Source: an uncultured Methanomicrobiales archaeon (GTDB lineage: Archaea > Halobacteriota > Methanomicrobia > Methanomicrobiales > Methanospirillaceae). From it: 64,000 bases of DNA. This document shows positions 57,560 through 63,264 of the stretch, piece after piece. The stretch is from positions 1 through 64,000 of the forward strand of contig CAIYHQ010000131.1 in the NCBI GenBank assembly GCA_903926075.1. Direction: 5' to 3'. The notes below the pieces were generated by a model. The model was not told the origin of the DNA. It was given only the letters and a program-made list of their open reading frames with translations, and did not search any database. Position 1 is the stretch's first letter, and the number at the start of each line of letters is the position of its first letter. The position numbers and the translations under genes were made by a program.

Positions 57560-57622
57560 CTAAAGAAGTATTGCAATGCGCGATGAACACTCTCGTGCTA
57601 AACGCACGCAGGAGGAGTTTTG

Positions 57623-58516
57623 ATGGAAAACATAGTGTTAGGCATTGGTATTACTGCATTGGCAGGAGCTCTTGCCGCTGTTGCCGGTGCAGCAGAGGAC
57701 ACTGAGTCAAATATCGGTTCACAGGGTGATCCGAACTCTCAGGTCCAGCTTGCACCGCAAATGGGTTACATACACCGGATATTTAACAAGGCCGTGGCGG
57801 GCGAACCGCCTGCATATGGTCTCTGGTGTGCCCTTGGCGCAGGTCTTACATGGGCTTTTCTGGCAATGCAGCTCAACGCAGTCCTTGCGATTGTGCTAGG
57901 TTGTGCCATAACGATATTTGTGCAGGGAGTCTATGCGACTACTGCATATCTTGGCAGGACAGCAAGTCTTGCGAAGTTTGGCCAGCCGGTTTACATCGAC
58001 ATACTGAAATCGATGACTTCTGTTACAATGGCCCATGCTTTTGTAGCAGTATTTTGTACAGTGACTATCTGTTATCTCATGAACTCAGCACTGGGTCACC
58101 CGTTCCCACTTCCGATTCTCGGATTTATCTGGGGAATAGCCCTCGGTGCAGCAGGTTCCGCGACAGGAAACCCGTACTATGGAAAGGAACGTCAGTACCA
58201 GAACCAGAAGTTCGGTGCCGGTGTTCCAATTGCAGCGTCGGGTAACATTGTCAGATATGCAGAAGCAGGAGTCAGAAATTCGCTTGACAACGGATGGTTC
58301 ACCGCTAAGCTTGGTGGTGCTGCATCTGGTCTTTGTTTCGGGTTTATTGTATTCCTTGAACTCTGGCGTACCGTCCTCTTTGAGAAGGTCGGAGCCGGCT
58401 GGGGAGCAATAGTAGTAGGTATCCTGATAATCCTCGTCTTCATGGTCGTAGACCGTTTCATCGAAGTCTGGGCAAGAAAGACCTATGGTCCGTACACAAA
58501 ACCAGAGGAGGCGTAA
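57623..58516 (+). CDS. mtrE: Tetrahydromethanopterin S-methyltransferase subunit E
   Basis: A 297-residue integral membrane subunit of the sodium-pumping Mtr complex, which moves the methyl group from tetrahydromethanopterin (or tetrahydrosarcinapterin) to CoM. It has about six hydrophobic segments and the conserved IGSQGDPNSQVQLAPQMGYI loop. ATG at 57623 has GGAGGAG at 57611-57617. First gene of the mtr operon, before mtrD. Confidence 0.96.
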   Translation: MENIVLGIGITALAGALAAVAGAAEDTESNIGSQGDPNSQVQLAPQMGYIHRIFNKAVAGEPPAYGLWCALGAGLTWAFLAMQLNAVLAIVLGCAITIFVQGVYATTAYLGRTASLAKFGQPVYIDILKSMTSVTMAHAFVAVFCTVTICYLMNSALGHPFPLPILGFIWGIALGAAGSATGNPYYGKERQYQNQKFGAGVPIAASGNIVRYAEAGVRNSLDNGWFTAKLGGAASGLCFGFIVFLELWRTVLFEKVGAGWGAIVVGILIILVFMVVDRFIEVWARKTYGPYTKPEEA

Positions 58517-58517
58517 G

Positions 58518-59375
58518 ATGAGCGCAATAGCCGGACCAAAATCAAGTTTAAGTGTTGAATATAATGCAGTTGCGATAATAGTTTCTCTTATTATTCTTGT
58601 GCTTATCATTGCGGCGACCTTTATGCTTGGAATCCCAATGGCATTGTCAGCACTTATCGGAATAATTGTAGGAGGAGTCCTTATCGGATTCGGTGTCCAC
58701 TTCGTTCCTGTAGGTGGAGCACCTGCAGCCATGGGGCAGGCCCCGGGAATTGCAACCGGAGTTGCTATGCTCGCTGGTGGTGCAGGCCTTGCCGGACTTT
58801 TCGGTGGGGCATGGGCTGCAAGCCAGGGGCTCGTCGTTGCAACTGTTACAGGTGCAATTGGTGGCGGACTCATGATGGCAATCACATGTTTCTTTGTGAA
58901 CGTCATCTACGTGTTCGGTATGGGTGTTCCTGCAGCGTCAGGAAAAGTCAAGAAAGACCCAATCACCGGAGATACACAGCCTGAATTTAAATCACAGGGA
59001 ACTGAAGGACATGGACTTCCGTTTGTATCCTTCGTCGGTGGTGTAATCGGCGGTATCTTTGGTGGAGGTGGCGGTACCCTTGTGTACATGATGCTTCTTG
59101 GCCTTTACACTGCAACGTTACCTAAACTTATGGGTTCCCAGTCAGTTGCAAACAGTGTTGCAATATTGCCCATCGCAGTCTCACTTGCAGGTGTTTTTGC
59201 AATAGGCATATTCCTTGTAAATGCAGTCCTTGCAGCTTACAATATCACCGGTACTATCGAAGGTCCGCACGACCCGAAGTTTAAGAGATTTCCCCGTGAC
59301 ATCATTGCGTCAGCTGTGGCGTCCGGGCTCTGTGGATTTGTCGCAATCCTTATTGCGACTTCGATTGGGATGTAG
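58518..59375 (+). CDS. mtrD: Tetrahydromethanopterin S-methyltransferase subunit D
   Basis: A 285-residue membrane subunit with glycine-rich TM helices, the HFVPVGGAPAAMGQAPGIAT loop and EGPHDPKFKRFPRDI near the C-terminus. C, D and E together form the sodium-translocating membrane part. ATG at 58518 follows GAGGAGGC; the longer open frame from 58485 overlaps mtrE. One base separates it from the mtrE stop. Confidence 0.96.
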   Translation: MSAIAGPKSSLSVEYNAVAIIVSLIILVLIIAATFMLGIPMALSALIGIIVGGVLIGFGVHFVPVGGAPAAMGQAPGIATGVAMLAGGAGLAGLFGGAWAASQGLVVATVTGAIGGGLMMAITCFFVNVIYVFGMGVPAASGKVKKDPITGDTQPEFKSQGTEGHGLPFVSFVGGVIGGIFGGGGGTLVYMMLLGLYTATLPKLMGSQSVANSVAILPIAVSLAGVFAIGIFLVNAVLAAYNITGTIEGPHDPKFKRFPRDIIASAVASGLCGFVAILIATSIGM

Positions 59376-59387
59376 AGGTGTTTTCAG

Positions 59388-60251
59388 ATGACGGTAAAAG
59401 TTGAAGTAGTTGAAGGTGGCGTCCCGCATTCGAAAGTCATGATTGTAGGGCTTATCTTAACGATTGTCTGTATCTACCTCACCTATCTGAACGTTCTCAC
59501 AAAGACAGAGTTATTCTCTTTCTTTGGCGGTCTTGCAGCTGTTGCAGCACTTACCTGGGGAAGTTCAACAATTAAGGTGCTCTGCAGTTACGGCATTGGG
59601 ACCGGAGTCCCATCGGCCGGAATGGTATCGTTCGGTTCTGGTGTGATAGCGATGCTCTTTGCCACAAAATTTGGCATTTTGTCCCCAATTGTAGCAGTCG
59701 TCCTTGCGGCAGTTATCGGAGCAATTCTAGGATATGTTGCTAACCGTGTTATTGCAATGAAGATCCCTGTGATGGTGAAATCACTTACTGAACTTGCCAT
59801 GGTAGGTTCATTAACATTGATGGGTTTCACTGCACTAATTACTGGAAGCTTTAATTTCAGTGCACTTATTGCACCAAACACGGTCCTCACGATAACGTCT
59901 GCGGGACTCACAGCAACAACGAGTTATCTTACCTCCTACATTGGAGGGGCCCTTATTGCGACAGTATTCCTGCTGGGTGCAATTGCAGTTCAGCACCCGT
60001 TTAATGCATGTCTCGGGCCAAATTGGACTCAGGACAGAATGTTAATGCTGGCAGTTGAATGTGGTTTTATCAGTATGATAGTTGCATCACTCATGTCAAT
60101 GCCCTTCGTACGCATTGATGCAGCGATAATAAGCCTCATTGTTTCAATAATCGGATGGTATTACACATATGCGAAATACTTCGAGTTATCGAAGCGTGAC
60201 GCAGCAGCATGGCTGGACCTTTCACCAATTCCAGAGCAGGAGGGACACTAA
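59388..60251 (+). CDS. mtrC: Tetrahydromethanopterin S-methyltransferase subunit C
   Basis: A 287-residue membrane subunit with around eight hydrophobic segments and the conserved QHPFNACLGPNWTQDR loop, followed by hydrophobic helices and a short soluble tail. Third of the three large membrane subunits. Starts 12 bases after mtrD; its stop is adjacent to the mtrB ATG. Confidence 0.96.
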   Translation: MTVKVEVVEGGVPHSKVMIVGLILTIVCIYLTYLNVLTKTELFSFFGGLAAVAALTWGSSTIKVLCSYGIGTGVPSAGMVSFGSGVIAMLFATKFGILSPIVAVVLAAVIGAILGYVANRVIAMKIPVMVKSLTELAMVGSLTLMGFTALITGSFNFSALIAPNTVLTITSAGLTATTSYLTSYIGGALIATVFLLGAIAVQHPFNACLGPNWTQDRMLMLAVECGFISMIVASLMSMPFVRIDAAIISLIVSIIGWYYTYAKYFELSKRDAAAWLDLSPIPEQEGH

Positions 60252-60536
60252 ATGTACGTCCTGGTACTTCCTGAGTATGGACTTGTGGTCGACCCGTTAA
60301 TCGGAGTTCTGACAACTGCCGGAGAATCTCTTTCGCCTATCATCGATAAGCTGGGAGAACTTGAAGCAGTTTCACAGGACCTCGTGAACATGCTCTCAGG
60401 CAAAGGAAACTTTCTTGCATCCTATCCTGGAAGAGAGAAATCACTCGGCATTGCCGGTGGTGTCACTGCTTTCTGGTATGGCATAGCAATCGGTCTCTTC
60501 CTTGCCGGGATCATCCTCCTGTTCCAGATGATGTGA
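60252..60536 (+). CDS. mtrB: Tetrahydromethanopterin S-methyltransferase subunit B
   Basis: A 94-residue subunit with a soluble N-terminus ([13 protein letters not shown]), a central helix, and one C-terminal TM helix ([20 protein letters not shown]). MtrB, A, F and G form the stalk of single-TM subunits. Begins directly at the mtrC stop. Confidence 0.94.
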
Positions 60537-60546
60537 GGTGAAAAGA

Positions 60547-61266
60547 ATGGCAGATAAGAAATCAGCAGCAAGTGGATGGCCGATTGCTCAGGGCGATTTC
60601 CACTCGGGAGACGTAAACAGTCCTGTTGCAGTTGTAACCATGGGTTCCCATCTTGACGAGAAGGGACTCTGTGATGCAGGTGCAGCACTCTGTGGGTCGT
60701 GTAAAACCGAGAACCTTGGACTTGAAAAGGTCGTCGCAAACGTGATCTCAAACCCCAATATCCGGTTCGTTCTCCTTGTGGGGACAGAGGTAAAAGGTCA
60801 CCTTTCAGGCCAGACTTTTATAGCCCTCCATAAGGGTGGCGTAAAAGAAGGCCGGGTTGTCGGAGCTGAGGGAGCTATCCCGTTCATCGAGAACCTGTCT
60901 GACGACGCTATCAAGCGCTTCCAGGAACAGGTCGAGTTTGTCAACATAATGGAATCCGAAGATGTCGGGGCCATAAAGGCAAAGATCGATGAACTCAAGG
61001 CAAAGGACCCGGGAGCCTTTGGGGCTGACCCAATGGTTATCGAGGTGAAAGAAGCCGCAGGTGGAGAAGAACCAGCAGGAGAAGCACGAGCACTCTCCGG
61101 GGAACTCGCTCTTATCCATGCACGCATGAAGATCATCGAGAAGATGGTGACAAGTATCGGTTACAGAGATAAATTTGCAGCCGGTGTTTATTCAGGCAAA
61201 ATTGAGGGCCTGATGATTGGTCTCCTGATCTCGTTCATTCTCGTGGGTATTTTGATAATGAGGTGA
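60547..61266 (+). CDS. mtrA: Tetrahydromethanopterin S-methyltransferase subunit A (corrinoid protein)
   Basis: A 239-residue subunit carrying the cobamide that is methylated by MtrH and demethylated by CoM. The corrinoid domain includes [20 protein letters not shown] and [13 protein letters not shown], with H85 as the expected cobalt ligand. The linker (about 173-215) leads to a single C-terminal TM helix ([16 protein letters not shown]). ATG at 60547 is preferred to the GTG at 60538. About 95 percent identical over residues 1-172 to the MtrA part of the fusion at 61489 (8 differences counted). Confidence 0.96.
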
Positions 61267-61272
61267 GAAAAA

Positions 61273-61482
61273 ATGCCAGAAGAAGCCAAACAGGCATCCG
61301 GACCCATCAGAATGGTTGCGATTGAGAACATGGTGGAGCAGATCCGCTATAAGGGACAGATCATTGCAAGGACCAATAAACTTGACTCGGCAATAATGGG
61401 TTCAGGTTTAGTCGGATTTATACTGGGTCTCGTATTTGCATTGATCGTGATAATTCTGCCCGCTATCCTGATGAGGGGATGA
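61273..61482 (+). CDS. mtrF: Tetrahydromethanopterin S-methyltransferase subunit F
   Basis: A 69-residue subunit: a short soluble helix with GPIRMVAIENMVEQIRYKGQ and one TM helix (GLVGFILGLVFALIVIILP). MtrF resembles the C-terminal part of MtrA in layout. Sits between the two mtrA-like genes; strong ribosome site GAGGTGA upstream. Confidence 0.93.
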   Translation: MPEEAKQASGPIRMVAIENMVEQIRYKGQIIARTNKLDSAIMGSGLVGFILGLVFALIVIILPAILMRG

Positions 61483-61488
61483 TCGAGA

Positions 61489-62229
61489 ATGGCAGATAAG
61501 AAACCAGCAGCCAGTGGATGGCCGATTGCTCAGGGCGATTTCCACTCGGGTGATGTTAACAGTCCTGTTGCAGTTGTAACCATGGGTTCCCATCTTGATG
61601 AGAAGGGACTCTGTGATGCAGGTGCAGCACTCTGTGGGTCTTGTAAGACCGAGAACCTTGGGCTTGAGAAGGTAGTTGCAAATGTTATCTCAAACCCCAA
61701 TATCCGGTTCATCCTCCTCGTGGGGACTGAGGTGAAAGGTCACCTTTCAGGTCAGACTTTTATAGCACTCCACAAGGGTGGTGTAAAAGACGGCCGGGTT
61801 GTCGGAGCTGAGGGAGCTATCCCATTCATCGAAAACCTTAATGAAGCCGCCATAAAGCGGTTCCAGGAACAGGTTGAATTTGTCAACATAATGGAATCCG
61901 AAGATGTCGGGGCCATAAAGGCAAAGATCGATGAACTCAAGGCAAGGGACCCGGGAGCCTTTGGAGCAGACCCAATGGTCGTCGAAGTCAAGGAAGCCGC
62001 AGGAGGCGGTGAGGTTGCAGCATCAGCCGCAAATCCACAATTCCTTGAGATCGAAAAAAGGCTCGATAAGATTGAGAAGCAGATAGAATTTGTTGATGCT
62101 GAGGTTGCTCAGCGTGTCGGCAGAAAGATTGGAAGAGATATCGGCATCCTCTACGGGCTTGTCGCAGGACTTACCGTCTTTATTATGCTCCTCATCTGGC
62201 TTGCAAAGATCTATCAGAATGTAGCATAG
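61489..62229 (+). CDS. MtrA-MtrG fusion: second corrinoid domain joined to subunit G
   Basis: Residues 1-172 are a second MtrA corrinoid domain, with the H85 cobalt ligand in [13 protein letters not shown] and all surrounding residues kept. After EVKEAAGG the sequence leaves MtrA and becomes Mtr[21 protein letters not shown], then [19 protein letters not shown] and one TM helix ending in the cytoplasmic tail. No separate mtrG exists between here and mtrH, so this gene supplies the G subunit. The usual order is A-F-G-H; here it is A-F-(A-G)-H. Frame is clean and has a ribosome site, so it looks functional. Confidence 0.9.
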
Positions 62230-62244
62230 GGAGGTGAAATATTC

Positions 62245-63264
62245 ATGTTCAAATTCGAGAAAGAACAGTCAGTCTGGGACTTCAACGGTACCAAGATCGG
62301 AGGACAGCCCGGTGAGTATCCTACAGTACTCGGGGCTTCTATCTTCTACAACAAGCATGAGATCGTTCTTGACGATCGCACTGGTAAGATAGACAAACCT
62401 AAAGCAGAAGCGCTATGGAACAGATGTCAGGAATTATCGGATATAACCGGTATTCCACACTTCATCCAGATCATTGCAGAATTTGCAGAAGCTTTTGAGA
62501 GCTATTTCACATGGTTTGACAGCATTGACAATAAGACTGCATTCCTCATGGACTCATCAGCACCGGCAGCACGTATGCATGCAGCAAAGTATGTTACAGA
62601 AGTCGGGCTTGCAGACCGTGCAATCTACAACTCAATAAACGGTTCAATAACAGCCGAGGAGATTGAGGCGCTGAAAGCAAGTGATGTCAATTCAGCAATT
62701 GTCCTTGCCTTCAACCCTGCAGACCCATCTGTTGCGGGCCGTGAGAAAGTGCTCGTTGAAGGTGGTGTTGCGGGTCAGACAAAGGGAATGATAGCCATTG
62801 CTGAAGAGTGTGGTATCACACGTCCTATTCTTGACACTGCAGCAACTCCGCTCGGACTTGGTTCAGGCGGCTCATACCGTGAGATCCTTGCATGTAAAGC
62901 AATCCATGGTTACCCGACCGGTGGTGCGTACCACAACATGACAGTGTCATGGACATGGCTCCGCCGCTGGAAGAAGAACCTCCACACAGTGTATGACGCG
63001 AAGCCAATTCTCAAAGAGCAGATGCTGAAGCACTATGCAAATGATATGGAAGCACTTCGTCAGGCAGTCTGGTCAGCACCCGACATCGGATCTAACCTCA
63101 TTGCAAGCACACTAGGTGCAGACCTTATCATGTATGGTCCAATCGAGAATGTCGAACCAATGATGACTTGTCAGGCATATGCGGATATCGCAATCCTTGA
63201 AGCTACCCGTCAGCTTGGTGTCGAGTGTGCAGCAGAAAGCCACCCGATCTTTAAATTAATCTAA
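62245..63264 (+). CDS. mtrH: Tetrahydromethanopterin S-methyltransferase subunit H
   Basis: A 339-residue soluble TIM-barrel methyltransferase that transfers the methyl group from methyl-tetrahydromethanopterin to the Co(I) of MtrA. Typical start KFEKEQSVWDFNGTKIGGQP, the IVLDDRTGKIDK strand and FLMDSSAPAARMHAAKYVTE. GGGAGGTGA ribosome site. Last gene of the operon. Confidence 0.97.
   Translation: MFKFEKEQSVWDFNGTKIGGQPGEYPTVLGASIFYNKHEIVLDDRTGKIDKPKAEALWNRCQELSDITGIPHFIQIIAEFAEAFESYFTWFDSIDNKTAFLMDSSAPAARMHAAKYVTEVGLADRAIYNSINGSITAEEIEALKASDVNSAIVLAFNPADPSVAGREKVLVEGGVAGQTKGMIAIAEECGITRPILDTAATPLGLGSGGSYREILACKAIHGYPTGGAYHNMTVSWTWLRRWKKNLHTVYDAKPILKEQMLKHYANDMEALRQAVWSAPDIGSNLIASTLGADLIMYGPIENVEPMMTCQAYADIAILEATRQLGVECAAESHPIFKLI

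Follow-up and report, generated by a model that had tools for sequence, protein, structure and literature searches.

Wang et al. (2015, PMC4632066) described mtrA-2b, an mtrA–mtrG fusion located between mtrF and mtrH in Methanomicrobiales. Eight mtrA-2b orthologues, all in the same context, came from the eight Methanomicrobiales genomes then available, and the two MtrA domains were inferred to have undergone long-lasting gene conversion. The same study described an mtrA–mtrF fusion of independent origin, mtrA-2a, in Methanococcales and Methanocella arvoryzae. A 2018 survey placed mtrA among 26 concertedly evolving genes (PMC6053082), and MtrA fusions have since been cited as frequent, with an A–F fusion reported in TACK archaea (PMC9982363). 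The words fusion and fused are absent from the Mtr structural papers PMC10998594 and PMC12774963.

The A–G fusion examined here is real and already known. The original prediction had left in doubt whether such a fusion had been described in related genomes, a doubt that the 2015 publication resolves. The gene shares with mtrA-2b the site between mtrF and mtrH, the fusion itself, the homogenisation with mtrA-1 and the host order; there is no difference of substance, its pair of MtrA domains lying toward the more diverged end. The mtrA-2a gene likewise carries a second MtrA domain on a stalk helix, homogenised by conversion, but its partner is MtrF and it lies between mtrA-1 and mtrG. The same subunits are found in the canonical mtrEDCBAFGH operon and in the solved complexes 8q3v (Mtr of M. 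marburgensis) and 9qtq (Mtr of M. mazei), whose MtrG chains (8q3v_G and 9qtq_S) align to the MtrG part of the fusion. In these complexes, however, MtrG is a stand-alone protein and each protomer has one corrinoid head.

The mtr operon and the fusion protein

A complete mtr operon lies at the end of the window, the whole 64-kb stretch of DNA that was analysed. Open reading frames and Pfam matches give the gene order mtrE-D-C-B-A-F-(A–G)-H, as originally predicted, with every gene on the forward strand. mtrE (57620..58516; PF04206, 432.9 bits) is followed by mtrD (58518..59375, an approximate start, the longest ORF beginning at 58485; PF04207, 303.8 bits), mtrC (59388..60251; PF04211, 237.9 bits) and mtrB (60252..60536; PF05440, 102.5 bits). 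mtrA-1 (60547..61266; PF04208, 277.3 bits) begins at an ATG with a good ribosome site, encodes a corrinoid domain with its own C-terminal membrane helix, and exceeds the cut-off of TIGR01111 with 327 bits. Downstream lie mtrF (61273..61482; PF09472, 78.1 bits), the mtrA-2/mtrG fusion gene of mtrA-2b type (61489..62229; 246 residues, PF04208 and PF04210 in a single open frame) and mtrH (62245..63264; PF02007, 339.6 bits).

The membrane tail of mtrA-1 (61114-61251) weakly matches MtrF, with 20.3 bits against a Pfam cut-off of 22 and 24.3 against an NCBIfam cut-off of 25. These matches fall just under the cut-offs and suggest that the MtrA tail and MtrF are related helices.

The fusion gene, in frame from mtrA to mtrG, encodes three parts on the forward strand. 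The second MtrA corrinoid domain (A2; 61489..61995, approximately residues 1-169) is homogenised with mtrA-1, lacks the native MtrA tail and matches PF04208 over residues 4-172 with 273.5 bits. It is followed by a flexible linker rich in Gly, Ala and Glu (61996..62034, residues 170-182; pLDDT <50 throughout) and by the MtrG helix (62035..62226, residues 183-246). Residues 183-235 match positions 10-62 of PF04210 with 81.4 bits (cut-off 27), so that approximately the first nine profile positions are missing. Across 69 fusions, the MtrA and MtrG profile matches are separated by 10-13 residues. AlphaFold predicts an MtrA domain followed by disorder across the linker (residues 170-182) and by a single long helix spanning residues 183-245; the predicted A2 domain superposes on the MtrA crystal structures 5l8x and 5laa with TMt values of 0.92-0.93 and an rmsd of 1.6-1.9 Å.

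The original prediction of a second MtrA domain about 95% identical to the first, leading into MtrG, was borne out by the alignment and the two profile matches: the first 172 residues of mtrA-1 and A2 differ at eight positions (95.3% identity). At the DNA level, 44 of the first 504 bases differ (91.3% identity). The two copies are similar from the start codon to approximately codon 172 and form direct repeats with a spacing of 942 bases.

The cobalt-ligand histidine, also predicted to be kept, is present in A2 as His85, together with Glu55. The ligand is retained in 68/68 A1 (mtrA-1) and 68/68 A2 domains, while 42 fusions show no variation at Lys53-Thr54-Glu55, at His85 or across most of the GAIPF segment. 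His85 and Glu55 correspond to His84, the ligand in M. marburgensis, and Glu54 as numbered in PMC4915002, which also describes the GAIPF segment.

A separate mtrG, which would have spoken against the original prediction, was sought across the host assembly (3.14 Mb in 134 contigs, 96.94% complete) and was absent; the sole PF04210 match lies inside the fusion gene. The only MtrF match in this genome is the mtrF of the operon. Three MtrA-type domains were found, namely mtrA-1, A2 and a soluble, distantly similar protein encoded on another contig (G000:C22:30749-31306, or L108:1486-2046). The gene of this third protein (186 residues; PF04208, 124.7 bits) is flanked by those for an ACR3 arsenite transporter and an ArsC-type arsenate reductase, and a permease fragment lies upstream. 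In 40 further Methanomicrobiales genomes, its matches share approximately 36-45% identity with it, and those examined are ordinary mtrA domains. A corrinoid-type protein within an arsenic operon was unexpected. On the contig of the mtr operon, outside the window, two short fragments (G000:C131:80484-80607) resemble the start and end of this protein, and may be what is left of a second copy.

Distribution and concerted evolution of the fusion

MtrG was detected in 179 of 232 Methanomicrobiales genomes, and 168 fetched loci, among which several genomes are represented twice and some loci are cut, were checked by profile search. Every uncut, undamaged operon examined has the layout A1, F, A-G, H, so the MtrA–MtrG architecture that the original prediction had proposed to look for across the order is found throughout these operons. 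In an even sample of the phylum, MtrG lies in frames of 201-319 residues in 28 of 29 members of the order, the remaining one being at a contig edge, whereas all 63 MtrG-bearing genomes outside the order have a separate, short MtrG frame (67-140 residues). As the uncut operons are all fused and frame lengths differ outside the order, the A–G fusion is a mark of Methanomicrobiales, normal for the whole order and no quirk of the genome studied here. The closest named loci belong to Methanomicrobiales/Methanoregula, placing the host within Methanomicrobiales. Candidate A–G fusions beyond the order (L087, L089-L091 and L094) were dropped, MtrG there being in its own frame.

Loci of the order that depart from the normal layout are of three kinds: contig ends (L102, L110, L129 and L131), frameshifts within the repeat (L021 and L088), and collapsed operons reading B, A-G, H with neither A1 nor F (L034, L039, L048, L132 and L152, some of which are the same genome twice). 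These exceptions are probably assembly problems. Metagenome-assembled genomes break, collapse or acquire frameshifts in the mtrA-1/mtrA-2 repeat, as also seen in L095/L168 and L109, and some of their MtrA domains are damaged. Such damage calls for caution when Mtr completeness is scored in these assemblies.

In a tree of 38 A1/A2 pairs, the two domains group by genome in 36 of the 38, with support being weak for a few of them. In G024 and G025, the exception, A1 groups with A1 and A2 with A2. The mtrA-1 and A2 of the host form a clade with 100/100 support, and a single A2 clade was rejected by the AU test (p-AU 2.6e-7). This pattern reproduces the gene conversion pattern of Wang et al. (2015). 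The homogenised block extends, on average, from the start codon to approximately codon 172. Nucleotide identity between A1 and A2 has a median of 97.5% over 68 pairs (range 79-100%), with the host pair (91.3%) toward the more diverged end. The longest shared run in this pair alone gives p values of 0.022 for variable sites and 0.08 for all sites; this test is marginal, so it is the tree and the published work that carry the argument for conversion.

Synonymous divergence between mtrA-1 and A2 is 0.38, compared with approximately 1.5-3, near saturation, against near relatives. The dN/dS ratio between the heads is 0.06 in the host pair and has a median of 0.07 in 42 pairs. Judged by these ratios, both heads are under strong purifying selection.

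Corrinoid heads in the Mtr complex

It is proposed, with a probability of about 0.7, that the gene is the Methanomicrobiales mtrA-2b, that its product replaces MtrG, and that each Mtr protomer would carry two tethered corrinoid heads homogenised by conversion. The MtrA corrinoid domain would have been duplicated long ago, the copy losing its own membrane helix and becoming joined to the N-terminus of MtrG, and the resulting protein would occupy the place of MtrG in the complex. The MtrA helix and the MtrG helix would then bear one head each, giving up to six heads per trimer compared with three. Methyl transfer between MtrH and the MtrCDE site may use both heads, which gene conversion may hold near identical so that each remains compatible with the same partners.

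In M. marburgensis, all four stalk subunits have their N-termini on the cytoplasmic side, and a flexible linker carries the MtrA head (PMC10998594), so an MtrG-borne head would also be cytoplasmic. Two heads per protomer are a reasonable reading given the conservation of both domains, the purifying selection on them and the cytoplasmic N-terminus of MtrG. We infer that the intact fusion is built into the complex with both heads loaded and active. The loss of the approximately nine N-terminal MtrG profile positions counts against this intact-fusion model; MtrB is the pairing partner of the N-terminal MtrG segment in M. marburgensis (PMC10998594). The two heads may also be loaded unequally, or processing may set MtrG free. 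The literature searched yielded no proteomics or structure of a Methanomicrobiales Mtr and no experiment testing a second swinging head.

The fusion might instead be made and yet provide only one working head per protomer, in which case the second domain would be a spare or a structural cap whose similarity is maintained chiefly by conversion. Conversion copies an intact sequence whether it is needed or not, and an MtrG-borne head may reach MtrH or MtrCDE less well. This explanation is nevertheless unlikely: no intact A2 domain has lost the histidine ligand, even in pairs at 79-85% nucleotide identity, and Wang et al. (PMC4632066) describe both mtrA paralogues as essential, citing Sarmiento et al. 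(2013). Low dN/dS ratios likewise argue against a dispensable second head. The essentiality work was reportedly a Methanococcus study, and so would bear on the analogous A–F fusion.

Internal initiation or proteolysis might supply MtrG as a separate protein, which would make the complex an ordinary one. An in-frame ATG at Met163, preceded by a weak GGAG, could yield an 84-residue MtrG. This ATG is, however, found in 42/66 A2 domains and in 43/66 A1 domains, where it would be useless; its predicted ribosome-site energy is no better in A2 than in A1, and the linker seldom contains another in-frame start. An internal start for free MtrG is thus without sequence support, and release of MtrG by either route is improbable. 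Least credible is a chimeric assembly of the two repeats. Short-read assemblies do break or collapse at the mtrA repeat, but the identical architecture recurs in complete single-contig genomes and isolates of the order, and the host copies differ at 44 of 504 sites inside a 99-kb contig.

It is slightly more likely than not that the Methanomicrobiales Mtr works with two active heads per protomer and six per trimer, in which case one head could receive its methyl group at MtrH during delivery by the other to MtrCDE. The genetic fact has been in print since 2015, and its mechanistic consequence would lie in the number of working corrinoids per complex. Within methane formation, Mtr is the step that pumps sodium, and, if the proposal is true, a complex with two active heads would have a duty cycle unlike those of the complexes solved so far. 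The Mtr structures found come from one-head lineages, and a whole order of methanogens probably has a differently loaded Mtr.
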